Below, piece after piece: positions 26,329-48,723 of a stretch of 64,000 nt of DNA. Origin of the DNA: Candidatus Nitrospira neomarina (GTDB lineage Bacteria; Nitrospirota; Nitrospiria; Nitrospirales; UBA8639); assembly GCF_032051675.1 (NCBI RefSeq), contig NZ_CP116968.1, positions 744,001 to 808,000 on the forward strand. Direction: 5' to 3'. The notes below the pieces were generated by a model. The model was given only the letters and a program-made list of their open reading frames with translations, did not search any database and was not told where the DNA came from. Every line of letters starts with the position of its first letter. The first letter of the stretch is position 1. The position numbers and the translations under genes were made by a program.

Positions 26329-26341
26329 GGGGCATGACCAC

Positions 26342-26902: not shown

Positions 26903-26903
26903 C

Positions 26904-28704: not shown

Positions 28705-28739
28705 TTTTTCTTCTATCGATTGAAGTAAGGATATTCATA

Positions 28740-30186: not shown

Positions 30187-30201
30187 CCATAGGCTTGCAC
30201 G

Positions 30202-31317: not shown

Positions 31318-31335
31318 TAGCCTTGTGAGGAATTT

Positions 31336-32307
31336 ATGATTGCCACTCTTCCACTCACGCAGAATCACAAGCACCATGGGATCCTTCATCAAGAAGATTT
31401 TGAAGCCCTATTTGGGGAGGCGCCCGGAACGCTCTTTCAGGAATGTCAGGAATTGGTAGGACATCATGATTTGCGTTATGACGTTTTACAGGGGGCTTCC
31501 CGTGATCAGGTTTTGCTTCGAGTGTTGAATACCCTTGACCAGGATCTGGAAGTCGCAGGGAAGCATCGTAAGCAGCGTTGGGAAGATGGATGGGCAGAGA
31601 ATCTGATGGATTTCCAACGCACAGGATATGATTTAGCTGCATTAATCCCAAAATTTGTGAGACCCCAGGAAATCATCCGATTAAAGGGTGAGTATGTCCG
31701 ACCGGTTTCCTCTCATTTCGAAACCAGTTTTGTCGAAATTCTACGCCACTGGATGTTTAAAAAATGGTTTCATGACGTTGACCATATTTACGAGTTTGGT
31801 TGTGGAACCGGCCATAATTTAGTCGATGCAGCTTTCATGTTTCCAGGCCGTCCCTTGTATGGGTTGGATTGGTCCCAATCCTCTCAAGCGATTCTTCTCC
31901 TGTTGAGAGAAAAGCATGGATTTAATGTCGTTGGTCGGGAATTTAACATGTTGGAACCTGATGAATCGTTTGATCTGTATCCTCGGAGCGGGGTGTTCAC
32001 CGTTGGCGCCATGGAGCAATTGGGCTGTCAGTACCATGCTTTCGTGAACTATCTTCTTAGGCAACGCCCTTCTATTTGCATACACGTGGAAACCCTGTAT
32101 GAGCTCTACGATCAGAACGTCCTGTTTGATTACGTCGCAGCTAAGTATCTGGAGAAAAGAAAGTATTTGCAAGGATTACTCGGAACTTTGAAGACTTTTG
32201 AGCAGGAGGGCCGGGTGGAAATTCTTGGAACAATCCGAACTTTTGGCTCACTATACCATGATGGCTATTCTATGGTGATCTGGAAGCCGGTAGAGGAGAA
32301 GATGTGA
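31336..32307 (+). CDS. SAM-dependent methyltransferase
   Basis: A 323-residue protein. The C-terminal two thirds form a class I methyltransferase with SAM motif I 'IYEFGCGTGHNLVDAAF' and a 'YGLDWSQSSQAILLLL' strand. The N-terminal part (about 1-140) is helical and may bind the acceptor ('LQECQELVGHHDLRYD'-like region). Many such enzymes in surface-glycan clusters methylate sugars or their amino groups. A TGATG overlap couples it to a second methyltransferase gene. The methyl acceptor cannot be told from sequence. Confidence 0.8.
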   Translation: MIATLPLTQNHKHHGILHQEDFEALFGEAPGTLFQECQELVGHHDLRYDVLQGASRDQVLLRVLNTLDQDLEVAGKHRKQRWEDGWAENLMDFQRTGYDLAALIPKFVRPQEIIRLKGEYVRPVSSHFETSFVEILRHWMFKKWFHDVDHIYEFGCGTGHNLVDAAFMFPGRPLYGLDWSQSSQAILLLLREKHGFNVVGREFNMLEPDESFDLYPRSGVFTVGAMEQLGCQYHAFVNYLLRQRPSICIHVETLYELYDQNVLFDYVAAKYLEKRKYLQGLLGTLKTFEQEGRVEILGTIRTFGSLYHDGYSMVIWKPVEEKM

Positions 32308-33068
32308 TGGTGAACGCGGAGCAATTACAGATTAAAACTTATGCGAATTCGAGTGAGCAAGCGGCTCGGCAACAGATGGGGAATTTGCTCTTTCAAAATC
32401 CGATTCCCCCGGACCAATTGCTATCGAATCTTGGACTATTTCTAGAATCCAAGCATTTGGCTCGCCTGTTATTCATGGACTTCTTGTACCGTCAGATCAT
32501 TGCCGTTCAAGGTGTCGTCATGGAGTTTGGAGTACGGTGGGGGCAAAATCTTGCCTTATTTTCCGCATTGCGAGGGATCTATGAACCCTTTAACCGGCAT
32601 CGAAAAATTGTCGGCTTTGATACGTTTTCCGGATTCCCATCTATCCATGAAAAGGATGGAAAGTCCAATATGATGGTGAATGGCCAATTGGCCGTCTCTC
32701 CACACTATGCAGAAAGCCTTCAAGAGCTGCTCAGTCTTCACGAGACACTTAATCCGTTAAACCATATTAAAAAACATGAACTGTGCGTCGGAGATGTGGT
32801 GGAGGAGTTGCCTCGATATCTGGCCAGATGCCCGGAAACCATCGTGGCTATGGCCTATTTTGATTTAGATTTGTACCAACCGACGGTCAAGTGTCTTGAG
32901 CTACTTCGTCCCCGAATGACCAAGGGCACTATTCTGGGGTTTGATGAATTGAATGATCCTGATTCCCCGGGAGAGACCCTCGCCTTGATGGAGGTCTTTG
33001 GATTGAACCATTTAAAGATTCAGCGGTTTCCCTTTGCCTCTCGAGTGTCGTATGTAGTGCTGGAATAA
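32307..33068 (+). CDS. TylF/MycF-like sugar O-methyltransferase
   Basis: A 253-residue class I methyltransferase resembling the macrocin O-methyltransferase (TylF/MycF) family: 'GVVMEFGVRWGQNLALFSAL', 'KIVGFDTFSGFP', and the metal-binding acidic region 'MAYFDLDLYQPTVKCLELLR' followed by 'ILGFDELNDPDSPGE'. These enzymes add methyl groups to hydroxyls of deoxy sugars. I chose ATG 32307, which overlaps the previous stop and has AGAGGAG upstream; a GTG three bases earlier is possible. It supports a methylated-sugar end product. Confidence 0.83.
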   Translation: MVNAEQLQIKTYANSSEQAARQQMGNLLFQNPIPPDQLLSNLGLFLESKHLARLLFMDFLYRQIIAVQGVVMEFGVRWGQNLALFSALRGIYEPFNRHRKIVGFDTFSGFPSIHEKDGKSNMMVNGQLAVSPHYAESLQELLSLHETLNPLNHIKKHELCVGDVVEELPRYLARCPETIVAMAYFDLDLYQPTVKCLELLRPRMTKGTILGFDELNDPDSPGETLALMEVFGLNHLKIQRFPFASRVSYVVLE

Positions 33069-33097
33069 GGGGCTATCACGCACTAAGGAGAGAGTCC

Positions 33098-34126
33098 GTG
33101 CCTCAAACAATAACTGAACAATTAGGAAAAGGCATGATACCTGATTCCATTATGCAGTTCTTTTATGGGAAAAATATTGTCGTGACCGGGGGAAGCGGCT
33201 TGATCGGACGGAAAATTGTGAGTCGGTTGATCGAGGCTGGCGCCTCCGTTCGAAGTGTGTCCCTTGATGAGATCCAGGTTGAAGATACGGTGGAGTATGT
33301 GAAAGGCGATTTGTGTGATTTTGAATTTTGTAAACGTACGGTGAAGGGCATGGATTGTGTTTTTCATGTGGCGGGAATCAAGGGTTCCATTGAAGTCACG
33401 AAATCCAAGCCGGCAAGTTTTTTCGTCCCGTTGTTGATGATGAATACCAATATGTTGGAGGCCTGTCGTCTGAATAAGGTTCATCGGGTGGTCTATACCT
33501 CATCTATTGGAGCATACCCGAGTGCCGAAATTTTCAAGGAACAGGAAGGAGAAGATGAAGGGCCACCAATGGATATGTTCCCTGGATGGGCCAAACGAAT
33601 GGCTGAATTGCAAGTTCGTGCTTACCAAATACAGTACGGTCTGACGCACTATGCCGTGGTGCGTCCCTGCAATGTGTATGGACCAGGAGATAATTTCGAT
33701 CCGGACAATGCCATGGTCATTCCCACCCTCATGCGACGCATATTTTCAAAAGAAGATCCGGTCGTGATTTGGGGAGATGGCACCGCCATTCGGGATTTTG
33801 CCTTTAGTGGTGATGTGGCTGATGGAGTGATTCTTGCTTTGTACTATGGAACGGGTGGGCGGTACGTGAATCTAGGCAGTGGTATCGGCTATACCATCAA
33901 AGAATTAGTAGAAGCTCTTCAATCGGTTGTGCCGTTCCGGGCCCAATTTGATCATACGAAACCCGCCGGGTTTCCCCGGCGTGTGATGGATATTTCTTTG
34001 GCCAGGAAGCTTCTCGGGTACGACCCACAAGTGAGTCTTCAGGAGGGGTTACAGCATACATGGGATTGGTATCTGGAGCATCATGATGAATATCTTCAAC
34101 GGCAAAATTACTTCGCCGCCTCATAA
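33098..34126 (+). CDS. Extended SDR (epimerase/dehydratase-like), paralogue 2, no canonical catalytic Tyr
   Basis: A 342-residue WcaG-type protein starting at GTG with AAGGAG seven bases upstream. 'VVTGGSGLIGRKIVSRLIEA', 'VVYTSSIGAYPSAE', 'RPCNVYGPGDNFDPDNAMVI' and 'IWGDGTAIRDFAFSGDV' show the full fold. In the catalytic helix the Tyr of Y-x3-K is replaced by Pro ('DMFPGWAKRMAE'), and there is no Tyr nearby. It is clearly related to the proteins at 28740 and 34636. Substrate and reaction are unknown. It overlaps the following RmlC-like gene by 44 bases. Confidence 0.82.
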   Translation: MPQTITEQLGKGMIPDSIMQFFYGKNIVVTGGSGLIGRKIVSRLIEAGASVRSVSLDEIQVEDTVEYVKGDLCDFEFCKRTVKGMDCVFHVAGIKGSIEVTKSKPASFFVPLLMMNTNMLEACRLNKVHRVVYTSSIGAYPSAEIFKEQEGEDEGPPMDMFPGWAKRMAELQVRAYQIQYGLTHYAVVRPCNVYGPGDNFDPDNAMVIPTLMRRIFSKEDPVVIWGDGTAIRDFAFSGDVADGVILALYYGTGGRYVNLGSGIGYTIKELVEALQSVVPFRAQFDHTKPAGFPRRVMDISLARKLLGYDPQVSLQEGLQHTWDWYLEHHDEYLQRQNYFAAS

Positions 34127-34643
34127 GTTACAGATCTCTCCCTGCCGCCTGGAAGGCGTGAGATTGGTTACCCCACCGACGATTTTTGAAGATTTTCGGG
34201 GAACCTACGTTGAAACGTTTAACGAGGCCCTGTACCGGCAAGCTGGAATTGATATGCCATTCGTGCAGGACGATATCTCCGTGTCTGGCAGGTATGTGCT
34301 ACGAGGCATCCATGGAGACCAAGAGACCTGGAAGCTGGTGTCATGTTTATGGGGGAGGTTTTATTTGGTCGTCGTCAATTGGGATCCCACCTCTCCACAG
34401 TTTCAACAGTGGGAATCGTTTACGCTATCAGATGGCAATCGATGCCAAGTCTTGATTCCACCGAAGTTCGGAAACGCCCATCTGGTGCTGTCTGAGCAAG
34501 CGATCTTTCACTATAAGCAAACGACCAATTATAACCGGGAAGGGCAATTTACGGTACCTTGGAATGATCCAACTTTGGGAATCTGGTGGCCGGTTAAACA
34601 GCCGATTGTTTCCCAACGGGATGAAGGAGTGACTCATGTTTAA
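34083..34643 (+). CDS. RmlC-type 3,5-epimerase-like protein (cupin)
   Basis: A 186-residue protein of the dTDP-4-dehydrorhamnose 3,5-epimerase fold. 'FEDFRGTYVETFNEAL', 'FVQDDISVS' and 'VLRGIHGDQETWKLVSCLWG' contain the catalytic His (H77) and the following Lys; 'IPPKFGNAHLVLSE' and 'FHYKQTTNYNRE' match the later strands. It likely epimerises a 4-keto sugar made in this island. GGAG lies five bases before the tandem ATG ATG inside the end of the previous gene. It overlaps the next gene by eight bases. Confidence 0.87.
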   Translation: MMNIFNGKITSPPHKLQISPCRLEGVRLVTPPTIFEDFRGTYVETFNEALYRQAGIDMPFVQDDISVSGRYVLRGIHGDQETWKLVSCLWGRFYLVVVNWDPTSPQFQQWESFTLSDGNRCQVLIPPKFGNAHLVLSEQAIFHYKQTTNYNREGQFTVPWNDPTLGIWWPVKQPIVSQRDEGVTHV

Positions 34644-35628
34644 GGGTAGTAAAGTATTAGTGACAGGAGCGGGAGGATTTCTGGGAACCAACATGGCTAA
34701 GCGTTTGGTGGAAGAGGGGAGCTATGTACGTGGCACATTGCATACACGTAGGCCGCAATTCGAGCACCAGGATTTGGAATATGTCAAAGCCGATTTAACG
34801 AATATGGAAGAGTGTCGTCGGGTCGTAGAGGGCATGGACTATGTCTTCATGTGTGCAGCGAATACCTCAGGAGCGGCAGTCATGGCGACTCAGCCATTAG
34901 CGCACGTGACGCCGAATGTGGTGATGAACGCCCAGATGTTGGAAGCTTCCTATCAGGCAAAGGTAAAGAAGTTTCTCTTTATCAGTAGTAGCGCCGCCTA
35001 TCCACCCAGTGGGGAGCGGGCCATCTCTGAGGAGGAAATGTTTGCGGGGGATCCGTATGAGGCTTATTACAGTGTGGGATGGATGAAACGGTATGGGGAG
35101 GTGCTGTGCCGTATTTATTCCGAAAAAATTAAGGATCCGATGAGCACGGTGGTCGTGAGGCCATCTAATGTCTATGGGCCATATGACAAATTTGATTTTG
35201 AGCGTTCCCATGTGACCGCGGCACTTATCCGCAAAGTGATTGAGCGTCACGATCCTCTAGAGGTGTGGGGAACAGGTGAAGATGTTCGAGACTTAATTTT
35301 TGTAGATGATTTCATTGACGCCGTGATGTTAGCAATGGCTAGGCTAGATCGGTTCGACCCAGTGAATATTGGATATGGAAAAGGGTGTCGAGTTCGGGAT
35401 GTGTTGAATACCCTTTTGGAGGTTGATGGGTTCCAGAGTGCTCAGGTGGTCGTGAATCCAACGAAACCATCTATGATTCCAATCCGTTTGATTGATGTGG
35501 GTCAAGCCAAAGTCCTTCTCAATTTTACCGCTCAGACCGGCCTTGTTACGGGTTTAAAGAAAACCATCGCCTGGTATCGGGAAAACCACGGGGCAAAAGA
35601 ACTGCTAAGAACCGCCCACGCGGTTTAG
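34636..35628 (+). CDS. Extended SDR (epimerase/dehydratase-like), paralogue 3, no canonical catalytic Tyr
   Basis: A 330-residue protein with 'VLVTGAGGFLGTNMAKRLVE', 'LFISSSAAYPPSGE', 'RPSNVYGPYDKFDFERSHVT' and 'VWGTGEDVRDLIFVDDFIDA'. In 'EAYYSVGWMKRYGEV' the position four residues before the Lys is Val, not Tyr; two Tyr lie further back. It is the third related member after those at 28740 and 33098. AAGGAG precedes the ATG, which overlaps the rmlC-like gene. It probably works on the same nucleotide sugar series. A 74-base gap separates it from the second aldo/keto reductase. Confidence 0.82.
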   Translation: MFKGSKVLVTGAGGFLGTNMAKRLVEEGSYVRGTLHTRRPQFEHQDLEYVKADLTNMEECRRVVEGMDYVFMCAANTSGAAVMATQPLAHVTPNVVMNAQMLEASYQAKVKKFLFISSSAAYPPSGERAISEEEMFAGDPYEAYYSVGWMKRYGEVLCRIYSEKIKDPMSTVVVRPSNVYGPYDKFDFERSHVTAALIRKVIERHDPLEVWGTGEDVRDLIFVDDFIDAVMLAMARLDRFDPVNIGYGKGCRVRDVLNTLLEVDGFQSAQVVVNPTKPSMIPIRLIDVGQAKVLLNFTAQTGLVTGLKKTIAWYRENHGAKELLRTAHAV

Positions 35629-35702
35629 AACAAGCGGTCCTTGTAAAGCCAGATATAATTTGGCAAGTCTCAGGGAAAAACCTTGTCGGAGTGAAACTTT
35701 AG

Positions 35703-36854
35703 ATGCAAAGTAAACAATTCGGGGAGACAGGAGTCAGCGTTGCATCGATCGGTCAAGGTACGACAGGGATGGGGACGAAGAATCATTTCCCCAAGGAATA
35801 TATTCAGGAAAGAATTAAAGCTCTACGATTGGGAATCGACCTAGGGATGACTTTTGTGGATACAGCTAGCTTGTATGGAAATGGGTTTTCAGAAGAAGTT
35901 GTTGGACATGCTCTAAAGGGGATTCGGGACAAATGTTTTCTTTCTACTAAATTTTACCCACATGAAAAAATGAGTTCGGAAGACATCGGTTTAGCCGTAG
36001 AAGCCAGCCTAAAAAACCTTCAAACCCCGTGGGTAGACCTTTACCAAATTCACTGGCCGAATCCTCGCGTGCATTTAGAAAAAATTTTTGAGGTTTTGGA
36101 AAAATATCAGAAACGTGGAATAATTAGATTTTTTGGAATTTGTAATTTTTCCCCGCAAGAAGTTTGTGCTCTTGAGCAATCCATACCTCATATTCCGTTG
36201 TCGTCAAATGAAATTGAATTTAATTTGCAAGCCAAAAGATTGGGAAATGAATTTTTGGGGTTGAGTTCATTTAAAGGAGCCATCCTGGCCTATAGTCCCT
36301 TAAACAAGGGAAGAATTGTTGGGACTGAATTTCAAGCCGACCTTATTAGAGGCTTAGCAGAAAGATATCAAGCCACTCCTTCTCAGATAGTTTTGGCATG
36401 GATTCTCTCATTTAAGAGAGTTTTTCCAATTGTAAAGGCAGCCACTCAGAAACATGTTAAAGAAAATGCTGGGGCAATGTCTCTTGCTTTGTCCAGTGAG
36501 GACATCCAACGGGTAAATGATTCCTGGGAAGAGCATATCTATGAGGCAAAACCTGAGAGCATTAAACTTCGAGGGACTCAACAGAGAAAACCTTATCTCA
36601 CTTTAGAAGAAGCGATAGAAAATCCTCTCGATTTGGTGCCAAGTCCCGTAGCGTTAGCTGAATCAATTGTCCAGTATGACCTAAAAATGCCCATTCAAGT
36701 CGTTCCTCTTTGTGGAAATAACGATTCCTATGAATATGAAGTCGATCCCTACGATCCCTTTGATCAAATAAAAAAGTATTGGGCCTGGAAGATTGCGTTT
36801 CCGGGGAAATTGATTCCGGTTTGTATCTCGAGAACAATGCCCTTGAACTATTGA
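35703..36854 (+). CDS. Aldo/keto reductase with divergent ParB-like C-terminal domain
   Basis: A 383-residue paralogue of the protein at 30202. The reductase tetrad is D53, Y58, K83 and H117 ('FVDTASLYGNG', 'LSTKFYP', 'YQIHWPNP'). The C-terminal 90 residues align with the ParB-like tail of the first copy ('VPSPVALAESIVQ', 'MPIQVVPL', 'QIKKYWAWKIAFPGKLIPVC'), but the G-x-x-R box is changed to D-Q-I-K-K. The gene is visibly AT-richer than its neighbours: 65 of 180 bases at 36121-36300 are G or C, against 32 of 60 at 34681-34740. This suggests separate acquisition or relaxed constraint. Confidence 0.8.
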   Translation: MQSKQFGETGVSVASIGQGTTGMGTKNHFPKEYIQERIKALRLGIDLGMTFVDTASLYGNGFSEEVVGHALKGIRDKCFLSTKFYPHEKMSSEDIGLAVEASLKNLQTPWVDLYQIHWPNPRVHLEKIFEVLEKYQKRGIIRFFGICNFSPQEVCALEQSIPHIPLSSNEIEFNLQAKRLGNEFLGLSSFKGAILAYSPLNKGRIVGTEFQADLIRGLAERYQATPSQIVLAWILSFKRVFPIVKAATQKHVKENAGAMSLALSSEDIQRVNDSWEEHIYEAKPESIKLRGTQQRKPYLTLEEAIENPLDLVPSPVALAESIVQYDLKMPIQVVPLCGNNDSYEYEVDPYDPFDQIKKYWAWKIAFPGKLIPVCISRTMPLNY

Positions 36855-37015: not shown

Positions 37016-40000
37016 ATGCACACATTTCCTGAAAGTTCCTTGGCACATAAATGGCTTGATGGCCTTTCGGGTTTGGAAATCGGTGCTTCTACCCACAATC
37101 CCTATGGATTGAAAACCCGAAATGTTGGATTAGGTGGGGATGGGTATGATCAAGAACAATTATCCTTGGCCGGAGAGGTTGCTCCGATTGATATCTGTGC
37201 TGAGGCCAGTGCGATACCCCTTTCCAGTGAAACAGAAGATTTCATCTTAGCGTCCCACGTCATAGAGCATTGTCCGGATGTTATTAAGACTTTACTGGAG
37301 TGGTATCGAATTGTGAAACCCGATGGGTACCTTTTTTTGGTGGTCCCACATCGGGATGCGGCCCCTTCTGACCGAGGAAAGCCTCTTACCGAATGGGAGC
37401 ATGTGGTTCAGGATTATATGAGACACGCTACACCAGAATCGGAGCCGGAAGGAAAAAGTTTCCTGTACTGTCATTATCATGTCTTTTCCCCCTCTTCCAT
37501 GAAAAACTTTATTTCTAGAATTTTTGGTTGTCGTCTGGCGCTGATGGAAGAACAAGATCCGGATGATAAGGTGGGGAACGGGTTTTCATTAGTATATCGA
37601 AAGACCAAGTCAATTCAACAAGCATTTCCATGGGGATTTCAGGGAGGAGGGTATTCCATAAATGTTTCAAGGCCGGCAGATTTTTATCAAAACAAAAAGG
37701 AAGAGGAAATGATTCCTCTCATGAAACCCCGTCAGGTAACTCTTTCTTGTAGCCAAAAAGGGGAATTTCCGGTAGAGGACCTGGGGCGTTCTCAAGAAAA
37801 AATGGGGAAATTCAAAGGTATGCTCGTTTCTGTCATTGTGGCCGCTTATAACTCAGAACGATTTATGCGGGGGTTGTTGGAAAATTTAGAAGCACAGACC
37901 ATCGCGGACCAGATGGAAATTATTATCGTGGAAACCGGCTCAGAAACCCAGGAAATCGATATTGTCCGAGAGTTTCAACAACGTTTTGCAAATATTACTT
38001 ATGTCAGGACATCTGAACGAATTAGTGCTGTTGCGGCAACAAATCAAGGCGTTCGCATGGCAAAGGGGATTTACATTACTCTACTGCCCACAGATGACCG
38101 GTTGCGTTGTGATGCCTTGGAAGTGATGGCCCGTGAACTTGAACAACATCCAGAATCCGGAACGGTATATGCCGATGTGTTTATGACCCAGTTTGAGAAC
38201 CAGACATTTCATCGTTTCATACGAGGCGGCTATTCCATTCGTTTCGATTTTAGTCCTGATATGATGTTGACCGGCTATCCTATGGGACCTTTGTTCATGT
38301 GGAGGAAAAAGGTTCACGAAGACGTTGGATTATTTGACGAAAAATTTCTTTGTGCCGCCGATTATGACTTCCATTGCCGTGTCGCGCGAAAGTATCCCAT
38401 GCGTCATATCTCGGAGTTTCTTGGCTTATATTTGCAAAATCCAAAAGGGGTGGTGAATTCCAATCCCCAAATTAGCCAGGCAGAATTTCGAGCTATTATT
38501 CAGGCGAACCGGTCGTATTTTCCAGCACCTATTCAGAAACCCCTGACCATCCTTCAATACGAGAAACCCGTCTTCCCTGGTCAATATGTCAATATTGGTA
38601 TGGTGACATTTAATCGGCTGGAATTTACGAAGCAGGCTATCGCTGCGCTTTTCCAGCATACCTGTTTCCCCCATGTCATCACGGTTGTGGATAACGGAAG
38701 TACAGACGGCACGCCACAGTATTTGCAAACGCTTCTCAATCAGGGATTTATTACCAATCTGATTTTGTTGCCAGATAATGTTGGAATTGCCAAGGCTTCA
38801 AATTTGGCATGGAGTCAGGAGCCTGAAGCTGAATATTACCTCAAGCTGGACAATGACATTGTTATCCAAAAGCCCGGCTGGTTATCCAGAATGGTTGAGG
38901 TCATCGACCGTATCCCTGAATTGGGCGCTATTGCCTATAACTTCGAACAAGAGAGCTATCCCGTCCGTGAGATTCGAGGCTTGTCTGTTCGGCCCAAAAT
39001 TGGAAATTTAAACGGGGCTTGTACCCTTATCCCCAAAAGAACTCATCAAACATTGGGATTTTGGTGTGAGGATTATGGATTGTACGGGGAAGAGGATGCG
39101 GATTATGGGATGAGAATTCATTTGCAGGGTTTGCAAAATGCCTATATGGAGGATGATAAAGTGGGATTGCATCTACCTGCCGGAAGGGCAGCCCACATCG
39201 ACGCACAGACGTTTAAGGCCACTGATGGAATTGAAGAAGAGACCCATGCGGAGTACCGGGCATTCAAAGATGAATGGAGGCGAAGAAATGTTCAGGACAT
39301 CGCGAAAAAAAATTGGGAGGATTACCAGACAGGTGTGAAATCGCTGTTTTGTTCGTCTCCCTTCGTGAAGGGATTCCATAAAGATCGAGATCAACCTGAA
39401 GGATCTGACGTACTCACTCGCCGACGGATTCAGACTGACGAAATACCGAAGGAAGCGATGCTTGAAAGGCCACGAGATTCTTCTCCAAAGCGCTGGCGAA
39501 CCGTTTCTGTCATTGCGTCTGATTATATCTGCGGTCGTATTCGACTCCTTCAACCACTCCTGGCTGGTGAAGGGATATGGGAAAAAGGCTCCATTGTTGC
39601 TGATGCCAACATCTATTTAAATGACACCATATTTCCCCCGATGGGGTTGGGACAGGTTTGGGCTATTCAGCGTAATTGTAGACTGTCAGAAGAAACTTTA
39701 AAGGAAGCGCAAAACCAAGGTACTCGAATTGTTTACGACTGTGACGATTTGCTCTGGAAAATTCCTCTCGATAATCCAAATCATGGATACTTTACTCCTG
39801 AATATCTTCAAAGAATGTTCGGTCTTATGTATACGGCGGATTGTGTGACGGTGTCTACGGAACCTATTCAAACCGATTTGAAGCAACGAGGAATCGAATC
39901 GACTGTTCTTCTGAATTGCTTGTTGCGTCAGGAATGGGAGGATTTCAACCCTCGACGTCGAGCGGGTTCCCGTCCTCGAGTTGGATGGGCAGGACAAGCG

Positions 40001-42217
40001 AATGTGCACAAAGGCGATACCGCCATTTTTGAAACGATTGTGGAGGCTCTCAAGGACGAGGTGGAATGGGTGTTTTTGGGAGACGCCCCACCGATGGTCA
40101 ATAGCCCAGGGGTGATCAGCGAAACATTTTCCATGGTAGACGTGGCGCAGTATCCGAAAAAATTGGCGAGTCTCAATCTTGATCTTGCATTGGCGCCATT
40201 GGTGCCAAACCCATTCAATGAAGCCAAAAGTGATATCAGAATTTTACAGTATGGAATATTAGGTTATCCGGTTATTGGCACGGATATTTTTCCCCATCAA
40301 CATGCCCCCATCCTCCGTTTGCCTCATGAACCACAAGTCTGGATCAAGGCGATTCGCGAACGAATTCATGATTTAGGTGCCTTAGAAAGGGAAGGAGATC
40401 ATCTCCGAGCCTGGGTATTGAATCATCGTCTTATGGAACATGTGCTTCCTCAGTATGAACAAGCCTGGTTGGGCCGTGACGTCAAATCCTCAAACGGGGT
40501 ACCTCAGTCGAAAATACAGAGTTCCACAGTGCCCTCTTATTCCCCAATCAACCATGCCAAGTATTCCTTTGATTGTTCAATCATTATTCCAGTTTGGAAT
40601 AAAGTGGCATTGACCCGGCAGTGCTTGACTCACTTGGCTGAGGTCACGGATGGCTGTTCGTATGAAGTCATTGTCGTCGATAATGCATCCACCGATGAGA
40701 CCCCGGCATTTCTGTCCTCTTTGAGTGGGGATATTCAGGTCATCACGAATCCGGCCAATTATGGGTTTGCCAAAGCCTGCAACCAAGGGGCCGCTTCTGC
40801 CAAGGGGCGTTTTCTGGTCTTTTTGAATAACGATACGATTCCGAAGCCAGGATGGTTGCGGGCTTTATTGAATGAAGTGGAGAGTCATCAGGATGTTGCC
40901 ATTGTCGGAAGCAAGCTGCTTTATCCGAATAATACTATTCAACATGCCGGCGTGGTTTTCGCCAAACATTGTTTGACGCCCTACCATATATTCCGTGGTG
41001 CTCCAGGAGACCTGCGTGCGGCCAATGTTCGTCAAGAGTTTCAGGTTGTCACTGCGGCTTGTATGCTCATTCGCCGTGAGGAATTTAATGCGGTGGGGCA
41101 ATTTGACGAGATCTATCAGAACGGGTTCGAGGATGTGGACTTGTGCCTCAAAGTGGGCAAACGGGGCAAGAAAGTCATCTATCAACCGGAAAGTGTGCTC
41201 TATCATTTGGAACATCAAACTCCCGGAAGGAAGGATCCTGAGGCCGAACGGCACAATGGTATTGTGCTCATGGAACGGTGGGCTTCCTCCATTGTGGTCG
41301 ATGAGGATTTCCATACGGTTCCGGCAGGCTATGCCAACCGGTATTCCATGCGTGACGGACGGCTTCAGCCCTCGCTCCAGGCACTGCAGGGCGATAGGGA
41401 AATCACGCAGTGGCAACGCGTTCAACGGGTGCAGGAGTTCCTATTACGTCAGCGGCATGCCGCAGACGAGGGCTTGAATAGCCAGGACGACGGTGAATTG
41501 CATGGTCTCCTTTCCGAGTATCGAGATTGGCCGGATGATGGTGAAGTGCTTAGATGGGCGGCCAAGCTTTGCCAATCGTTGCAGCTATTGGATGGGGAGC
41601 GGGCATTTTTGAACCGGATACTGAGTAGGGGAGAAGATCGAGCGGCACGGGAACGACTCGCTAAGCTGGCTCTCAGCGGGAAGGATCTGTCCGGGGCGAC
41701 TGACCATATCCAGGCGATCCTACAATCTGATCCCAACAATGGGTCGGGTCACTGGTTGCAGGGAATTCTGTTGATGCAATCCCAGCAATGTGGTGAGGCG
41801 GCCCTGTCATTTCGTCGCGCTCTGCAATGTGGCGCAGATTCTCGAAAATCCCGTATCGGTTTGGGAATGGCGTGTATGGGAATGGGAGATTTGGAAGAAG
41901 CCTGGAAGATTTTTGAACAGGTGATGATCGATCATCCCGATGATGTCGAAGCCATGAATGGGTTGATCCAGGCCGGAACATCCCTGGAACGATGGAAAGA
42001 CTTGGGGGAACGGCTTGCACGGTATGTCGAACGAAACCCCGCAGACTGCGATATGCGCTTTGCTCTGGCCGGGGTGGAATTTCGGGGGAGTCGACTCGAT
42101 GTGGCCAAGCAACAATTTGAGATGTTAAGCCTCTTAAAGCCCGACTATGAGGGATTACACGATTTAGAGGTTCTCCTTCAGACGGCACCTCTTGACCGCC
42201 ATGCCCTCGCAACTTAA
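37016..42217 (+). CDS. Giant multi-domain glycosyltransferase with methyltransferase and TPR parts
   Basis: A 1733-residue protein. Order: methyltransferase-like domain (about 1-200, 'LEIGASTHNPYGL', 'ASHVIEHCPDVIKTLLEWYR'); GT2 domain A (about 270-520, 'VSVIVAAYNSERFMRGLLEN', 'LPTDDRL'); GT2 domain B (about 525-760, 'VNIGMVTFNRLEFTKQAIAA', 'LKLDNDIV'); a GT-B/GT4-like domain C (about 827-1150, 'VYDCDDLLW', 'RPRVGWAGQANVHKGD'); GT2 domain D (about 1187-1400, 'CSIIIPVWNKVALTRQCLTH', 'FLNNDTIPKPGW', 'FEDVDLC'); and a TPR-like helical tail (about 1490-1733). Four transferase modules in one chain suggest assembly of a whole oligosaccharide. It heads the transferase block upstream of flagellin. 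No strong ribosome-binding site is seen. Confidence 0.88.
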   Translation: MHTFPESSLAHKWLDGLSGLEIGASTHNPYGLKTRNVGLGGDGYDQEQLSLAGEVAPIDICAEASAIPLSSETEDFILASHVIEHCPDVIKTLLEWYRIVKPDGYLFLVVPHRDAAPSDRGKPLTEWEHVVQDYMRHATPESEPEGKSFLYCHYHVFSPSSMKNFISRIFGCRLALMEEQDPDDKVGNGFSLVYRKTKSIQQAFPWGFQGGGYSINVSRPADFYQNKKEEEMIPLMKPRQVTLSCSQKGEFPVEDLGRSQEKMGKFKGMLVSVIVAAYNSERFMRGLLENLEAQTIADQMEIIIVETGSETQEIDIVREFQQRFANITYVRTSERISAVAATNQGVRMAKGIYITLLPTDDRLRCDALEVMARELEQHPESGTVYADVFMTQFENQTFHRFIRGGYSIRFDFSPDMMLTGYPMGPLFMWRKKVHEDVGLFDEKFLCAADYDFHCRVARKYPMRHISEFLGLYLQNPKGVVNSNPQISQAEFRAIIQANRSYFPAPIQKPLTILQYEKPVFPGQYVNIGMVTFNRLEFTKQAIAALFQHTCFPHVITVVDNGSTDGTPQYLQTLLNQGFITNLILLPDNVGIAKASNLAWSQEPEAEYYLKLDNDIVIQKPGWLSRMVEVIDRIPELGAIAYNFEQESYPVREIRGLSVRPKIGNLNGACTLIPKRTHQTLGFWCEDYGLYGEEDADYGMRIHLQGLQNAYMEDDKVGLHLPAGRAAHIDAQTFKATDGIEEETHAEYRAFKDEWRRRNVQDIAKKNWEDYQTGVKSLFCSSPFVKGFHKDRDQPEGSDVLTRRRIQTDEIPKEAMLERPRDSSPKRWRTVSVIASDYICGRIRLLQPLLAGEGIWEKGSIVADANIYLNDTIFPPMGLGQVWAIQRNCRLSEETLKEAQNQGTRIVYDCDDLLWKIPLDNPNHGYFTPEYLQRMFGLMYTADCVTVSTEPIQTDLKQRGIESTVLLNCLLRQEWEDFNPRRRAGSRPRVGWAGQANVHKGDTAIFETIVEALKDEVEWVFLGDAPPMVNSPGVISETFSMVDVAQYPKKLASLNLDLALAPLVPNPFNEAKSDIRILQYGILGYPVIGTDIFPHQHAPILRLPHEPQVWIKAIRERIHDLGALEREGDHLRAWVLNHRLMEHVLPQYEQAWLGRDVKSSNGVPQSKIQSSTVPSYSPINHAKYSFDCSIIIPVWNKVALTRQCLTHLAEVTDGCSYEVIVVDNASTDETPAFLSSLSGDIQVITNPANYGFAKACNQGAASAKGRFLVFLNNDTIPKPGWLRALLNEVESHQDVAIVGSKLLYPNNTIQHAGVVFAKHCLTPYHIFRGAPGDLRAANVRQEFQVVTAACMLIRREEFNAVGQFDEIYQNGFEDVDLCLKVGKRGKKVIYQPESVLYHLEHQTPGRKDPEAERHNGIVLMERWASSIVVDEDFHTVPAGYANRYSMRDGRLQPSLQALQGDREITQWQRVQRVQEFLLRQRHAADEGLNSQDDGELHGLLSEYRDWPDDGEVLRWAAKLCQSLQLLDGERAFLNRILSRGEDRAARERLAKLALSGKDLSGATDHIQAILQSDPNNGSGHWLQGILLMQSQQCGEAALSFRRALQCGADSRKSRIGLGMACMGMGDLEEAWKIFEQVMIDHPDDVEAMNGLIQAGTSLERWKDLGERLARYVERNPADCDMRFALAGVEFRGSRLDVAKQQFEMLSLLKPDYEGLHDLEVLLQTAPLDRHALAT

Positions 42218-42250: not shown

Positions 42251-43486
42251 ATGTCCCGAGCCCTCTTAATACAATTAGCTCGGCTGGGTGATCTGGTCCA
42301 ATCTCTTCCTGTTTTGACTGCTCTGCAAACCGCCTATCCTGAGCGACCTCTTGATCTCCTTTGCCCTTCGCCCCTGGTGGCGCTTGGAGAACTTTTCCCT
42401 TGTGTGGACAGGGTTTTCCCTTGGAATGGGGAACAATGGCATGAATTCGCCACGACCAAGATGACGGATTGTGATCAACAACTTGCCCGAGCCACTCGCT
42501 ATTTGGCTGACTGCGCCTTTCCCCCGTATGCATTGGCCTATAATTTGAATAACCATCCTCGCGGGATACTTGCTGCCCATGTATTGAGTGGTCTGGTTGT
42601 CGGTCCTGGCGAGTATGGACCATTGAATCAGTCGCTTCCGGCATGGGCGGGATATTTACGTCAAATTGCTCGAGATCGAGGGAGCAACCGGGTGCATTTA
42701 GCGGATGCGTTTTGCGGGTTGTGTCAGGTTTCTCCGCCCTTGGACGTTCCCTACTTACAGGCCCCGGAGGTGCCCTTGCCCTTTGAGCTGGAACTGCCGG
42801 TGAATGGTGAACCTTTAACTCTCATCGGAATTGTTCTTGGTGCGGGAGATGCCGACCGGCGAGTTCCCCTTTCTGCATGGCAAGACCTGATTGCTGCATG
42901 CGCTGAGCACATTCCTCAGTGCTACCTGCTTTTGGTTGGTGGTGCGGGAGAACGGGAAGCGGCATTGGCCTTGGAGCATCGCCTTCCCGCTAAATACCTC
43001 AATCGGGTCGTGAATGGGTGTGGCCGGACCTCGTTGCCCCAGCTTGTGGCTCTTCTTAATCGGTGTCAGTGGGTGGTCGGATCGGATACGGGACCATTGC
43101 ATCTCGGAGCGATGTGTGGGGCTCGGGCGATCGGCTGGTATTTCTCCCAGGCCAGAGTTCATGAAACGGGCCCCTATGGGATTGGTCATTATGTGTGGCA
43201 ACGCACGGGAGCGAAACTTCGGGAGAGCCTGGATGTCCGTGAAATAAGCGCTGCTGAGTCATCCTCTGCCTATTGGCCTGTGATGGAAACCGTCAATTTA
43301 ATGCAGGAAGGCACGGTGAATGCCACAACAGATGGGTGGGATCTCTGGACCAGCAATAGAGATGAGTGGGGAGCGTTTTATACCAGGGATGGCATCCCTG
43401 ACGAGGCTGTCCTCCGGCGAAAAGATACGTGGAAGGCGCTGTCTCAGCTGGCGAATCAAGGTATTCGGATGGAAGTCGCGAAGTAG
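42251..43486 (+). CDS. GT9 family glycosyltransferase (heptosyltransferase-like)
   Basis: A 411-residue protein of the ADP-heptose:LPS heptosyltransferase family: 'LLIQLARLGDLVQSLPVLTA' at the N-terminus, 'LIGIVLGAGD' in place of the usual 'hPGa' strand, and the donor-binding 'SLPQLVALLNRCQWVVGSDT' followed by 'GPLHLGAMCG'. About 70 residues beyond the GT9 core close the protein. The flagellar context suggests transfer of a heptose-type sugar to the flagellar glycan, but an LPS role is possible. No clear ribosome-binding site precedes the ATG. Confidence 0.86.
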   Translation: MSRALLIQLARLGDLVQSLPVLTALQTAYPERPLDLLCPSPLVALGELFPCVDRVFPWNGEQWHEFATTKMTDCDQQLARATRYLADCAFPPYALAYNLNNHPRGILAAHVLSGLVVGPGEYGPLNQSLPAWAGYLRQIARDRGSNRVHLADAFCGLCQVSPPLDVPYLQAPEVPLPFELELPVNGEPLTLIGIVLGAGDADRRVPLSAWQDLIAACAEHIPQCYLLLVGGAGEREAALALEHRLPAKYLNRVVNGCGRTSLPQLVALLNRCQWVVGSDTGPLHLGAMCGARAIGWYFSQARVHETGPYGIGHYVWQRTGAKLRESLDVREISAAESSSAYWPVMETVNLMQEGTVNATTDGWDLWTSNRDEWGAFYTRDGIPDEAVLRRKDTWKALSQLANQGIRMEVAK

Positions 43487-43555: not shown

Positions 43556-45373
43556 ATGGACGTGTTGAAACAAAATATCGGTATTCTTCGCGACCAGGAT
43601 CCGATACTTGCCGCTCAGATCCTCCAGGTAACAGGAGGGACCCTGTCGATCCAACCAGCTAAATCTGGAATGCCCACCGCGCTTGTCGACTCCCGATATC
43701 TCCATAGTGCGTATGATCCGGTTCGCGAGGCGGAGCGATGGGCTGAAGAACGCGTGAAAGAGTGTCAAGCAGAGGAAACTATTGTCCTCCTTGGCGTGGG
43801 ACTGCTCTACCATGTGCAAGCCTTGCGTCAGATGTTGCCCCATGACCAGGTCGTAATGGTCGTCGTGCCGGATCTTTCTGAATTTGCGGATTGTGTCTCG
43901 GTCCGGGCGCTGGAAGGGTGGGGGGAAGGGGTGATATGGCTGACGGGTTCCATTCCTGATATGGCTGTCCAAGTGACACAGGAAGCCAAGCGGGTGCGTG
44001 TTCTGAGTTACGAACCTGCGGTCACGGTTCATCGTGAGGCCTATGAACACTTTCGACTGCAACTTCGTGAGCATCTCGCTCAACAATTAAGCGGGGCGCT
44101 TCACATCATGGTGGTCGGACCTATTTATGGCGGGTCGTTGCCGATCGCCCGATATGTGGTCAATGCCTTGGAAGGTCTTGGACATCGTGTAAGTTGGGTG
44201 GATCATAGTCCTCATTACGCGGGATATCAGAATTTGGAAACGATCCGTGATCACCGGTTGCGGCTCACCGTCCAGCAACGGATGAGTGAAATGCTGGCGG
44301 TGATAAGCCTTGCTCATGTGGCAGAAGATCCCCCGGATCTCGTGTTAGCTTTGTCCCAGGCGCCATTGACCATGGCCGTTTTAGAGCAAATGCGTCGAAA
44401 GAAGGTGTTAACGGCCATGTGGTTTGTGGAAAATTTTCGGCATTTAACCTATTGGCAGCAGATGGTGACGGGGTATGACTTTTGGTTTGTGATGCAAGAA
44501 GCCGCATGCTTGGACGCTTTCAGAAAAGCCGGCGCCAAACACGTCTCGTATCTTCCCTTAGCTGCTGATCCGTCCATTCATCAACCTAGGACCTTCACCG
44601 AAGAAGAGCGACAGCAGTTTGGTGCAGACGTCTCGTTTTTAGGAGCAGGGTATAGAAATCGGCGACATATCCTCCCATCCCTGGTTGGCCATGAGTGGAC
44701 ATTTAAATTGTGGGGGAATGAATGGGACAACCCGGGGGCGTTAGCGTCGGTTCTTCAGAGAGGGGGCGCACGTATTGATACCTCCACCAGTGTAAAAATT
44801 TTCAATGCCACCTCGGTCAATATTAATTTGCATTCGTATACGGGAGACGGATTCGATCCGGAGGGAGATGGGGTGAATCCCAGGACATTTGAATTAGCCA
44901 GTTGCGGGGCGTTTCAAGTGGTTGATACTCGAACCTTGCTCCCGGCCCTCTTTGATGAATCGATGATGGCCATAATCAACAATCCGGATCAGCTCCTCCC
45001 AACCGTCCAAACCTATCTGCACGAACCAGCCAGGCGAGTGGCCATGGCTGAATTGTCCCGGAAGCGCCTATTAGAAGCGCATACGTACGAACATCGGATG
45101 AAAACCTTCTTAGGCGCCGTGGGTATGGCGAGTCCTGACCGGTTAGGAGCTATCCTTCAGGGGGACCGTCATGCTGAATCCTTAGTGGCGCGAAGTGGGA
45201 AGACTCCGGAACTGATTCCCATGCTGAAGCAGTTTCCTCCAACCGATCGTGTGGAGTTAGTGGATGTGGCGAAAAGTATTCGGAATAAGGGGCCTGAAGC
45301 CCGGTTGAACCGTGAGGAACTACTGATTCTGATGATGGATGAATACCGCCAGGAAAAACGGGATTTTCTTTGA
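43556..45373 (+). CDS. CgeB-like glycosyltransferase
   Basis: A 605-residue protein. The N-terminal third has a Rossmann-like region ('IVLLGVGLLYHVQAL') similar to motility-associated-factor-type segments. The middle and C-terminal parts match the CgeB/DUF3880 plus GT family 1 architecture ('AMWFVENFRHLTYWQQM', 'DVSFLGAGYRNRRHILPSL', 'WGNEWDNPG', 'SVNINLHSYTGDGFDPEGDG', 'NPRTFELASCGAFQVVD'). Such proteins are frequent near flagellin genes. It sits between two GT9 genes. The acceptor is not known. Confidence 0.85.
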   Translation: MDVLKQNIGILRDQDPILAAQILQVTGGTLSIQPAKSGMPTALVDSRYLHSAYDPVREAERWAEERVKECQAEETIVLLGVGLLYHVQALRQMLPHDQVVMVVVPDLSEFADCVSVRALEGWGEGVIWLTGSIPDMAVQVTQEAKRVRVLSYEPAVTVHREAYEHFRLQLREHLAQQLSGALHIMVVGPIYGGSLPIARYVVNALEGLGHRVSWVDHSPHYAGYQNLETIRDHRLRLTVQQRMSEMLAVISLAHVAEDPPDLVLALSQAPLTMAVLEQMRRKKVLTAMWFVENFRHLTYWQQMVTGYDFWFVMQEAACLDAFRKAGAKHVSYLPLAADPSIHQPRTFTEEERQQFGADVSFLGAGYRNRRHILPSLVGHEWTFKLWGNEWDNPGALASVLQRGGARIDTSTSVKIFNATSVNINLHSYTGDGFDPEGDGVNPRTFELASCGAFQVVDTRTLLPALFDESMMAIINNPDQLLPTVQTYLHEPARRVAMAELSRKRLLEAHTYEHRMKTFLGAVGMASPDRLGAILQGDRHAESLVARSGKTPELIPMLKQFPPTDRVELVDVAKSIRNKGPEARLNREELLILMMDEYRQEKRDFL

Positions 45374-45412
45374 ACCTGTGATGGGATAATTTCCCGCTAC
45401 CGCCAATTATTG

Positions 45413-47068
45413 ATGAATAAACAAGTCCTCATTATTAATATTACCCGGATGGGTGATTTAATTCAGATGGTGCCCCTTCTTTCACGGTTAGAGGAAGAAT
45501 GGCCGGGTGTGGCCATTGATCTGATTGTTGATAAAGAATTTGCGCATGTCGCCAGCCTGATTCCTGGGATTCGACAGGTGTTGATGTTTGACTTTCAGCT
45601 GCTGATGGATGAAAGCCGGGTGCGAGCGCGAGACGTGGTTTCTCTCTACCGGGAACTTGCCGGTTGGGTCCAACCGTTACTTCAGGTTGGGTACGATCGT
45701 GTGGTGAACCTGACCTTTAATCGCCGCAGTGCGTTTCTGATGAAATATTTCGGGTGTGCAGATGAGCGAGGAATGACCACGACCCAGGATGGGAGTTTCG
45801 TGGTGAAAAATCCTTGGATGAAATATTTCGTGGATTTCCATGTGTATCGACAATTGAATCGGTTCAATATCGTGGATCTTTTTTCGCTTGGTGGGAGCGG
45901 GCCAGGTTCGTTTTCTCCCCTTCGCTTATCTGTTCCCCAGCACATGAAAGAATGGGCACGGACCTATGTGAGACAAGCAGGAACGGCTGATGAGTGGATT
46001 GGCATTCAAGTCGGCGCCAGTGATCCGATGAAAGCCTGGCGACCGGAGTACTTTGGACAAATGATGGCGTGTCTCAGCCAAAAACAGCCGGTCGGATTTG
46101 TGTTGATTGGCACGAAGAAAGAAGAGGCGGAGGTTCAGGAGGCTATTCGGTGTTACCGGCAGGCGGGAGGATTGGGGAACATCTGTGAAGCCGTTGGCCA
46201 AACCACTGTCCCGCAACTGGTGGCCTTACTTGAACATTGTGTCTTGATGGTGACCAATGACACGGGGCCCATGCATATGGCTGTGGGAGTGAATACGCCG
46301 GTTCTGAACGTGTCGGTGGGTCATGTGAATTTTTGGGAAACCGGACCGTTTGGACCAGGGCATTGGGTGGTTCAACCCGAGATCATGTGTGGCCCATGCG
46401 GATTCGATAAGGTCTGCCCTCACCATGCCTGTAAAGACCAGATCATTCCTCAAGAGGTGGCTGAGCTCTGCTTACATCTCTTGGGTAATCGTCCCTTTCC
46501 ATCGTTTTCGTCCAAGATTCGAGTATATGAAGGTGGCGTCAATGAAGATCATTTAGGGACATTTATAATAAGAGCGGGAACGGAAGAGCCACGCATCTCC
46601 TGGTACGCGGAGTATTGGCGGCAATACTGGTATAAATCCTTTACCGGTACCCCTAGCCTGGTCCCTTTTTTCCCAACGCCTCCACCGGATTTTTCAGACT
46701 GCGAGCAGGTATGGCGTCGCTTGGCTTCCCAGCTCGATCAGTTGTGTATTCAGGCAGACACCGTAGTGGATATGTGTCGTCAAAGGCCGATTCCGGTTAA
46801 CCGGTTAAAAACGTGCCAGTACCAACTTAAAGTTGACACACTCACGATGCAACAGATCGCCAGGCCGTCATTGGCCTTTGGTCCTTTAGCGATGGCTTTT
46901 TTCCGAGATACCTTTAGCTTGGAGGCCTTGACCCTTAGCGGCATGGCCGAAGAACATGCCCGAGCGTATCATATATTTCGCACTCGAGGGGAAGAAAATT
47001 TTAGGCGGTTGGAAGGAATGCTTTCTCATGATCCAAGGGGGATTTTGTATGCACGTACAATTGGATGA
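45413..47068 (+). CDS. GT9 family glycosyltransferase with C-terminal extension
   Basis: A 551-residue protein. Residues of about 1-360 form a GT9 heptosyltransferase-like enzyme ('LIINITRMGDLIQMVPLLSR', 'IGIQVGASDPMKAWRPEYFG', 'TVPQLVALLEHCVLMVTNDT', 'GPMHMAVGVNTPV') ending in a cysteine-rich 'CGPCGFDKVCPHHAC' typical of this branch. About 190 further residues are unassigned. The start is ATG 45413, with an in-frame TTG just before. The gene ends overlapping the next by 20 bases, so it is in the same operon. Confidence 0.85.
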   Translation: MNKQVLIINITRMGDLIQMVPLLSRLEEEWPGVAIDLIVDKEFAHVASLIPGIRQVLMFDFQLLMDESRVRARDVVSLYRELAGWVQPLLQVGYDRVVNLTFNRRSAFLMKYFGCADERGMTTTQDGSFVVKNPWMKYFVDFHVYRQLNRFNIVDLFSLGGSGPGSFSPLRLSVPQHMKEWARTYVRQAGTADEWIGIQVGASDPMKAWRPEYFGQMMACLSQKQPVGFVLIGTKKEEAEVQEAIRCYRQAGGLGNICEAVGQTTVPQLVALLEHCVLMVTNDTGPMHMAVGVNTPVLNVSVGHVNFWETGPFGPGHWVVQPEIMCGPCGFDKVCPHHACKDQIIPQEVAELCLHLLGNRPFPSFSSKIRVYEGGVNEDHLGTFIIRAGTEEPRISWYAEYWRQYWYKSFTGTPSLVPFFPTPPPDFSDCEQVWRRLASQLDQLCIQADTVVDMCRQRPIPVNRLKTCQYQLKVDTLTMQQIARPSLAFGPLAMAFFRDTFSLEALTLSGMAEEHARAYHIFRTRGEENFRRLEGMLSHDPRGILYARTIG

Positions 47069-47895: not shown

Positions 47896-48723
47896 ATGGC
47901 ACTTGTCGTTAACAACAACATCGCATCGCTCAACGCTCAACGGAATTTGGGCGTGTCCAGTTCTCAATTGGAAGGATCGGTCGCCCGTCTTTCTTCGGGT
48001 TTGCGAATTACCCGAGCTGCAGACGATGCTGCAGGTTTAGGAATTTCCGAAACCTTGCGGGCTCAGATTCGTAGTATTAATCAAGCGGTCAGAAATTCCA
48101 ACGACGGCATCAGTTTACTCCAAATTGCTGACGGTGGTGCGGAAGGCATCGGCAATCTATTAGGCCGCCTTCGGGAACTAGCCGAGCAATCAGCCAGTGG
48201 AATCCTTGGCTCGAATGAACGATCCTTCCTTGATCAGGAATTTGTGGCCCTTCGCTCTGAAATCGATCGAATCTCTTCTGTGACAGAGTTTAACGGAGTG
48301 AAATTGTTAAGTGGAACCGATAACGACTCCTTGAGTATCCAAATTGGTTTCCGGAGTTCAGCGAATGATACGCTTTCCTTGTCACTCAATGACTTGAATA
48401 CAAGTACATTAAACCTCGCCTCGACCAATGTGTCGACTTCCGGCAATGCGTTAGACGCATTGTCTAACATTGATAGCGCCATTAGTGCCGTGGCGTCTGC
48501 TCGTGCAAATATCGGGTCCTTGCAAAACAGGATTGATGCTGCTGTCGGCAATCTGCAAGTTGCCGGTGAGAATATCACCGCTGCTGAATCACGGATTCGT
48601 GATGCTGATATTGCCTTTGAGTCAGCGAAGTTCGTCAGGAACCAAATATTAGTTCAGGCCGGTACCTCAATATTGGCTCAAGCCAATACGTTGCCTCAGC
48701 AAGCCCTCGCCTTGCTGCAGTAA
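47896..48723 (+). CDS. fliC: Flagellin
   Basis: A 275-residue short flagellin consisting almost only of the conserved D0/D1 ends: 'NNNIASLNAQRNLGVSSSQL', 'RLSSGLRITRAADDAAGLGI', and the C-terminal 'ITAAESRIRDADIAFESAKF' with 'ILAQANTLPQQALALLQ'. The surface-variable D2/D3 domains are absent. The middle (about 125-190) is rich in Ser, Thr and Asn ('NDLNTSTLNLASTNVSTSGN') and could carry O-glycans made by the neighbouring island. Its own sigma-28 promoter, strong ribosome-binding site and strong terminator mark a highly expressed monocistron. Confidence 0.97.
   Translation: MALVVNNNIASLNAQRNLGVSSSQLEGSVARLSSGLRITRAADDAAGLGISETLRAQIRSINQAVRNSNDGISLLQIADGGAEGIGNLLGRLRELAEQSASGILGSNERSFLDQEFVALRSEIDRISSVTEFNGVKLLSGTDNDSLSIQIGFRSSANDTLSLSLNDLNTSTLNLASTNVSTSGNALDALSNIDSAISAVASARANIGSLQNRIDAAVGNLQVAGENITAAESRIRDADIAFESAKFVRNQILVQAGTSILAQANTLPQQALALLQ

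Follow-up and report, generated by a model that had tools for sequence, protein, structure and literature searches.

A modular glycosyltransferase chain with a candidate flagellin-docking TPR tail and recombining front modules upstream of a short flagellin in Nitrospirales

Introduction

According to the accessible parts of the papers cited here, flagellin transferases that join glycosyltransferase (GT) domains to TPRs are already known. In GmaR of Listeria, a flagellin O-GlcNAc transferase and anti-repressor of 637 aa, the GT is followed by a TPR region that was proposed to recognise flagellin (PMC9638930). Maf-1 is a flagellin nonulosonic acid transferase, and acceptor specificity is conferred by its C-terminal TPR (cited in PMC13317340; PMC4065374). 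In FlmG of Caulobacter (596 aa, pseudaminic acid), an N-terminal TPR binds flagellin and a single GT-B domain is present (PMC7591256). Fusions of methyltransferase (MT) and GT domains are likewise known from the parts of the literature at hand. WsaE of Geobacillus contains an N-terminal methyltransferase and two GT domains, with methylation capping an S-layer glycan that is exported by an ABC system (PMC2943079). The GT2 of Clostridioides difficile type B (CDR20291_0242), encoded near fliC, combines GT2 and methyltransferase domains and has been proposed to transfer two rhamnoses and to methylate, after GT1 has added the first sugar (PMC5207246). Flagellin glycosylation islands in Enterobacteriaceae (PMC4875605) and Clostridium (PMC13317340) hold variable sets of sugar and GT genes between flagellar genes, including MT-GT fusions and GT2 proteins with TPRs that were predicted to be flagellin transferases.

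Here we describe a locus in a 64,000-nucleotide stretch of the genome of Candidatus Nitrospira neomarina (the window). The order Nitrospirales, to which it belongs, includes major nitrite oxidisers. The locus encodes a 1733-aa chain which, on the evidence below, is likely to be a TPR-docked flagellin glycosyltransferase with swappable extension and capping modules.

The chain and its domains

The chain was encoded by a single open frame with an ATG start in a 4.80 Mb genome consisting of one contig. Relatives matched it over the full length at 84% and 78%, and full-length relatives at 56–75% were found in four further genomes, one of them with an internal stop; the named relatives were a Nitrospiria bin and a Nitrospirales bin. 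Given these relatives and the single-contig genome, an assembly artefact was ruled out, so the chain is not a set of separate genes joined by assembly error, a concern raised in the initial sequence-only reading. The domains proposed there (an N-terminal methyltransferase-like domain, three GT2 modules, one GT-B module and C-terminal TPR-like repeats) were recovered by Pfam and structure modelling, in the order methyltransferase-like region, GT2, GT2, GT-B, GT2 and TPR tail. Pfam served as the basis for all domains except GT-B, and the exact borders were set by us:

37016–42217, + strand: modular glycosyltransferase chain, 1733 aa (open reading frame and relatives)
37016–37615, + strand: methyltransferase-like region, residues 1–200, with a degenerate motif I (Pfam PF08241/PF13489)
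37811–38545, + strand: GT2-A, residues 266–510, an exchange block together with the MT region (Pfam, motifs)
38582–39385, + strand: GT2-B, residues 523–790 (Pfam, motifs)
39467–40519, + strand: GT-B domain of GT4 type, residues 818–1168 (structure model and PDB comparison)
40556–41305, + strand: GT2-C, residues 1181–1430, the conserved catalytic module (Pfam, motifs, relatives)
41483–42181, + strand: TPR tail, residues 1490–1722, a family of its own within the order (Pfam, structure model)

Pfam matched Methyltransf_11 at residues 48–108, GT2 in three stretches (protein-level E 1.7e-62) and TPRs at residues 1548–1652. The predicted TPR helices reached approximately residue 1707, and the border was placed at 1722, close to the protein end at 1733. 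Among the best 25 of 30 matched NCBIfam families, none reached the cut-off. The fourth GT (residues ~830–1150) had no Pfam match at E ≤ 1, and an 18-sequence profile of this domain had no PDB sequence match below E 0.05. Structure prediction, which the sequence-only reading had proposed as a check, succeeded for this domain but not for the front or for GT2-C. The model adopted a GT-B fold resembling that of GT4 enzymes (Z up to 23.6, with an rmsd of 3.8 over 316 aligned residues), with two Rossmann-like lobes of the GT4 type and a pLDDT of at least 70 in 21 of 33 ten-residue blocks (46–66 in the remainder). The top Foldseek match overall for the model was the TPR superhelix of OGT. Folding of residues 1–815 gave a pLDDT of 29 and that model was unused; GT2-C was poorly modelled (pLDDT <50 over fragment residues 355–707) and left uninterpreted.

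In the GT2 family, a DXD-like motif serves the donor and metal, and an acidic pair provides the catalytic base. Inspection of each GT2 domain for its DXD motif, as the sequence-only reading had recommended, found one in all three: TDD at 359–361 with D449 in GT2-A, D612-N-D614 with E692/E693 in GT2-B, and N-N-D1273 with E1372-D1373 in GT2-C. Across the order, NND was kept in 90 of 93 GT2-C modules and EDxD in all 93. In enzymes with the GT4/GT-B fold, the part of the C-terminal lobe that binds the donor generally contains a glutamate. At this position, 17 of 19 chains had Gln and two had His; among six relatives on viral contigs, five had Glu and the sixth Asp. Motif I of the methyltransferase-like region read LEIGAS, with no GxG, and its Pfam match began only at residue 48. 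The loss of donor-binding residues, which would have counted against the proposed architecture, was thus not seen in GT2-A, GT2-B or GT2-C, whereas the GT-B glutamate and the MT motif I were noncanonical. Since this glutamate is missing and motif I is degenerate, the GT-B and methyltransferase-like domains might be inactive.

A conserved cassette leading to fliC

When 146 genomes of the order were searched with the chain, 105 had a match at E ≤ 1e-20, 87 of these at E < 1e-100. In the phylum as a whole (295 genomes), matches that spanned GT2-C into the TPR tail (E < 1e-180) occurred in 62 genomes, every one within the order, and the next-best match (E 5.5e-76) covered the GT2 part only. Of 101 fetched loci, 90 held a chain, including the window, three variants from genus g5 and one second chain; the latter four were excluded from the tally of gene order, leaving 86 loci. 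One genome (G078, locus L063), in which the chain was cut at the contig end, was counted among the chain genomes and not among the chain loci. The GT and sugar-nucleotide genes of the window sat inside the flagellar cluster beside flagellin. The following genes flank the chain:

15835–16986, + strand: FlgL, hook-filament junction protein, to the left of the sugar gene island
42251–43486, + strand: GT9a, GT9-family glycosyltransferase, fixed neighbour (synteny)
43556–45373, + strand: protein with DUF3880 and Glyco_trans_1_2 (GT-B), fixed neighbour (synteny)
45410–47068, + strand: GT9b, GT9-family glycosyltransferase, fixed neighbour (synteny)
47896–48723, + strand: short flagellin FliC, 275 aa, proposed acceptor (size, conservation)
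49320–50735, + strand: short filament cap FliD, 471 aa (size compared with the long kit below)

The chain, GT9a, DUF3880/GT-B, GT9b and fliC followed one another in the same order and on the same strand in all 73 loci that held all five, so that the order sought at other flagellar islands was identical wherever the cassette was complete. The remaining 13 of the 86 loci stopped before fliC, at the end of the locus or contig, and were consistent up to that point. Some loci (such as L030, L064, L066 and L071) had extra sequence between members of the block. The block continued past the short flagellin with a short FliD; the cassette FliC measured 256–332 aa (median 275, n = 72) and FliD 459–480 aa (n = 57).

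Variants of the chain itself were also encountered. Five of the 86 chains had two or three GT2C-TPR modules, and the longest (L062 of G092, 5618–16105) was a 3496-aa chain with three such modules in one open frame. Genome G102 encoded a second, separate chain (L065, with L064) on the same contig, approximately 37 kb apart. In the three g5 genomes (G019, G035 and G040; L070–L072), the TPR tail was kept and GT2-C was unrecognisable; in the g5 variant that was scanned (L070), a GT2 domain and a weak GT4-like match preceded the tail.

Two alternative kits upstream of fliC

Flagellin_N matches were present in 102 of the 146 genomes. Five with a FlgL-like match only (G018, G044, G045, G060 and G068) were dropped, leaving 97 genomes with FliC, of which 87 encoded a short FliC by open frame and 10 a long one (605–643 aa in the fetched loci). 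The chain was present in 84 of the 87 short-FliC genomes and absent from all 10 with a long FliC, counts that are not independent of ancestry. The other three short-FliC genomes were those of g5, whose chain has the same TPR family, and one of the 84 was G078, with the N-terminal part of the chain followed by the contig end. Conversely, three of the 87 chain genomes (G044, G059 and G068) had no clear FliC match; the contig with the chain stopped short of fliC in all three. The link to flagellin suggested by the sequence-only reading was therefore borne out, both by the fixed order up to fliC and by the association of the chain with the short flagellin.

At all 10 long-FliC loci, GT9a, DUF3880 and GT9b were absent from the fetched stretch (6–20 kb). 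FliD of this kit was 768–787 aa in nine loci, and L099 had a shorter frame. Matches to the Maf domain (PF01973) at E < 1e-30 came from nine of the 10 genomes with a long FliC, whereas the 87 chain genomes had none; in the tenth long-FliC genome (G016, L098), the contig began 286 bases before fliC. PF01973 at this threshold also occurred in G011 and G060, both without a clear FliC, and the window's genome had no PF01973 match at E ≤ 1e-5. One weak MptE-like match, to a 231-aa frame on a chain-bearing contig (G068:C19:15819-16256), was the only match among the 87 chain genomes. In the three scanned loci (L090, L091 and L094), the Maf (MptE-like) protein upstream of the long fliC ended in TPRs, and in L094 genes for NeuB, a UDP-GlcNAc-2-epimerase type and Polysacc_synt_2 were also located upstream of fliC. 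Relatives of these proteins that aligned over almost their entire length were encoded in L092, L093, L095, L096 and L097; L099 had fragments.

Further observations were made on the long-kit genomes. The Maf-TPR proteins of L091 and L092 (G071 and G027; 1174–1186 aa) were approximately 300 residues longer at the N-terminus, and in L091 this extension was a methyltransferase domain, so that MT fusion occurred in both kits. FlgL-like frames among the matches listed measured 821–871 aa in three long-kit genomes, compared with 300–693 aa (median 380) in 47 short-kit genomes. Scored against the TPR family of the chain, one Maf among the matches listed reached approximately 10 bits, compared with at least 93 bits for 90 chains. 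A common origin of the chain TPR and the Maf TPR was unsupported by these scores; the shared C-terminal TPR is therefore treated as an analogy, because the two TPR families differ.

A tree of rpoB was built from 30 selected genomes (all 10 with long and 20 with short FliC). It required five changes between long and short FliC, all five forced by starred branches; the tree does not separate gains from losses. All five independent pairs on this tree agreed with absence of the chain (sign test p 0.0625), a trait that was coded by hand and with two g5 rows (G019 and G040) omitted. As judged from these genomes, two kits with unrelated catalytic domains, each ending in TPRs, alternate upstream of fliC.

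Module exchange and the sugar-donor island

Among 87 chains of 847–3496 aa, approximately 23 N-terminal types were distinguished at 45% identity over 80% of the length; two chains (L022 and L066) were cut at the N-terminus, and the types may be up to two fewer. Of the 3741 chain pairs, 3487 had C-terminal modules that aligned across 80% or more, compared with 345 for the N-terminal parts. Ten sampled pieces outside the known domains comprised other methyltransferases, GT4 domains, a radical SAM domain and a TagF-like match under the cut-off (L089). The radical SAM domain (L031 of G123, residues 207–372) was fused ahead of the GT2 domains in the chain.

The chain of L051 was 58–62% identical to that of the window over MT and GT2-A and 85–97% over GT-B, GT2-C and TPR, while its MT and GT2-A block was 77–84% identical to L053 and L055. 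In approximately unbiased (AU) tests with six sequences, the grouping obtained from one block was rejected for the other in both directions (p 4.5e-55 and 9.3e-63); the groups had been defined after the identities were seen, and L054, with its MT in a separate frame, was excluded. GT2-B alone left the exchange unresolved (AU p 0.116 and 0.092), and the crossing point lay near residue 525, between GT2-A and GT2-B. From these alignments, MT and GT2-A are a single exchanged block within the window's type. Another chain, L058, shared 47% (GT-B), 74% (GT2-C) and 87% (TPR) with the window, compared with 85%, 88% and 77% with L059, a pattern that hints at a further crossover between GT2-C and TPR. 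FliC was 86–100% identical across the compared loci.

Upstream of the chain lies a set of sugar genes:

22037–36854, + strand: sugar-donor island (heptose-type dehydratase, kinase, epimerases, E1/TPP pairs, AKRs, methyltransferases), which goes with the N-terminal modules

Sequence of 2.5 kb or more ahead of the chain was available for 82 loci. All seven of these with the window's kind of GT2-A and GT2-B encoded two or more of the window's sugar genes (55% identity or higher), compared with one of the 75 others (L068). None of the window's sugar genes was found in the same-genus loci L058–L061. Common descent of a single island, and not selection, could account for the co-occurrence of modules and sugar genes. 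The best PDB match of the open reading frame at 24233 was GDP-D-glycero-D-manno-heptose 4,6-dehydratase (E 2.5e-78), the one at 25207 was HddA-like below the cut-off, and the one at 34083 was matched about equally by GDP-keto-heptose epimerases and RmlC. By these similarities the island looks heptose-related, and the donors made here are probably GDP-linked deoxyheptoses. The island also held a pyruvate-dehydrogenase-E1-like alpha/beta pair and a transketolase split over two genes (22037–24194 and 26832–28704), a combination that suggests a two-carbon branched sugar. No ABC glycan exporter (wzm/wzt) was detected among the 30 neighbouring open reading frames of the window that were scanned.

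The sequence-only reading had interpreted the chain as an assembly line for a defined oligosaccharide. Because the front modules recombine and go with the sugar genes, an assembly line is plausible, but the support stops short of a defined oligosaccharide or of colinearity.

Discussion

In the mechanism that we propose, the chain would act in the cytoplasm, where the C-terminal TPR tail would hold the small flagellin FliC. GT2-C, together with GT9a, DUF3880/GT-B and GT9b, would build a conserved inner glycan, which the N-terminal modules (MT-like, GT2, GT2 and GT-B) would extend and cap with strain-specific sugars from the adjacent island, resembling what WsaE (PMC2943079) and, as has been proposed, the C. 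difficile GT2 (PMC5207246) do for their glycans. The glycan on the short FliC may replace the surface role of the outer domains in the long flagellins of sister species. The sequence basis of this reading covers the module anatomy, the fixed synteny, the association with short flagellin, the lack of the chain in genomes with Maf-TPR and a long flagellin, and recombination close to the border of a module; we infer the binding of flagellin by the TPR tail, the order of action, the enzyme for the first sugar and the glycan itself. A broader idea, possible although we hold it doubtful, is that the chain is a glycan counterpart of modular synthases. The docking tail would sit on flagellin, and the number and order of GT, methyltransferase and radical-SAM modules would set the oligosaccharide; strains would rewrite their flagellar surface by swaps within the gene while flagellin stayed near constant, and tandem GT2-TPR modules (up to three, in the 3496-aa chain) would add docked steps.

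The alternative that comes closest to the proposed mechanism, and that we consider unlikely, accepts that the chain glycosylates flagellin and takes the TPR tail as a scaffold for GT9a, DUF3880 and GT9b or as a dimerisation element, with flagellin recognised elsewhere. The lack of sequence relationship between the TPR tails of the chain and of Maf would fit such a role, and the two or three GT2C-TPR modules in some chains suit a scaffold and repeated docking equally. Docking is favoured by precedent, in that the C-terminal TPR of Maf-1 was reported to determine acceptor and site specificity (cited in PMC13317340, as far as the available text goes) and the TPR of FlmG binds flagellin (PMC7591256), and by the presence of a C-terminal TPR at the end of both kits found here.

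Synthesis of a cell-surface polysaccharide or LPS oligosaccharide, with the neighbourhood of fliC serving only as an insertion site for the island, appears improbable. The GT9 neighbours do belong to the family of LPS heptosyltransferases, the sugar genes are of heptose type, and an MT-GT-GT fusion is used in S-layer glycan synthesis (WsaE; PMC2943079, in part). Such a product would nevertheless leave unexplained why the chain tracks FliC size, why genomes with a long FliC and no chain have Maf-TPR upstream of fliC, and why the order to fliC is invariant in complete loci; the few chain genomes lacking a clear FliC are those in which the contig ends first. Least credible of all, with hardly any probability left to it, is that the giant frame represents an artefactual fusion or a gene in decay and the mosaic a product of errors in metagenome-bin assembly. 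Relatives in G049 (a stop) and G115 (a TGA) are interrupted and many others come from draft genomes, but the window's genome is a single contig, long uninterrupted chains also occur in other single-contig genomes (e.g. G043, G050, G073, G107, G121 and G123), and the GT2-C donor motifs are kept in nearly all or all modules.

If a TPR-docked flagellin glycosyltransferase with swappable modules is indeed encoded here, the flagellar surface would be varied by recombining the domains of one glycan-building protein and not via flagellin, and the order would have traded the chain kit and the Maf/long-flagellin kit several times. The locus would be a clean case of a glycan taking the place of the outer domains of flagellin, which may affect phages and grazers that use flagella for recognition. 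With the natural domain swaps, the factors that determine glycan order in glycosyltransferases with several domains could then be tested directly.

In the literature searched, mostly non-subscription and available in part, we found no description of a constant docking module with recombining front modules in a fixed, order-wide cassette that alternates with Maf-TPR and flagellin size. Titles and abstract openings on flagellin glycosylation in Nitrospira gave no account of such a chain, and titles on domain shuffling and flagellin gave nothing relevant.

Compared with the described systems, as far as the accessible texts describe them, the tail of the chain most resembles GmaR, with a GT2-type domain (residues 1181–1430) followed by TPRs (residues 1490–1722). 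GmaR, however, has one GT domain and carries a linker and anti-repressor domains after its TPR, whereas the chain has four GTs and ends 11 residues past the TPR border. Maf-1 is a flagellin transferase of the type with a C-terminal TPR, and Maf-TPR proteins lie upstream of fliC in the chain-less sister species; its MptE-like catalytic domain is unrelated to the chain, its donor is a nonulosonic acid, and in these genomes it goes with a long flagellin. FlmG, the model chosen in the sequence-only reading, is also modular and combines TPR and GT-B, but it is not the nearest relative in design: its TPR is N-terminal and accompanied by a single GT-B (PMC7591256), while that of the chain is C-terminal and preceded by four GT domains. 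In WsaE, too, a single polypeptide carries an MT at the N-terminus and two GT domains (motif I being degenerate in the MT of the chain studied here); WsaE serves an S-layer glycan with ABC export, and the available part of its description mentions no TPR. The C. difficile GT2 unites GT2 and MT domains in a single flagellin-glycan enzyme near fliC, but a separate GT1 adds the first sugar, and one GT2 Pfam domain and one MT are named in the text at hand. For the tail, the GT-then-TPR proteins GmaR and Maf-1 are thus closer than FlmG, and for the front the MT-GT fusions WsaE and the C. difficile GT2 are closer. Known islands, in the sources available, vary by gene content, whereas this chain varies inside one gene, with its C-terminal module constant across the order.
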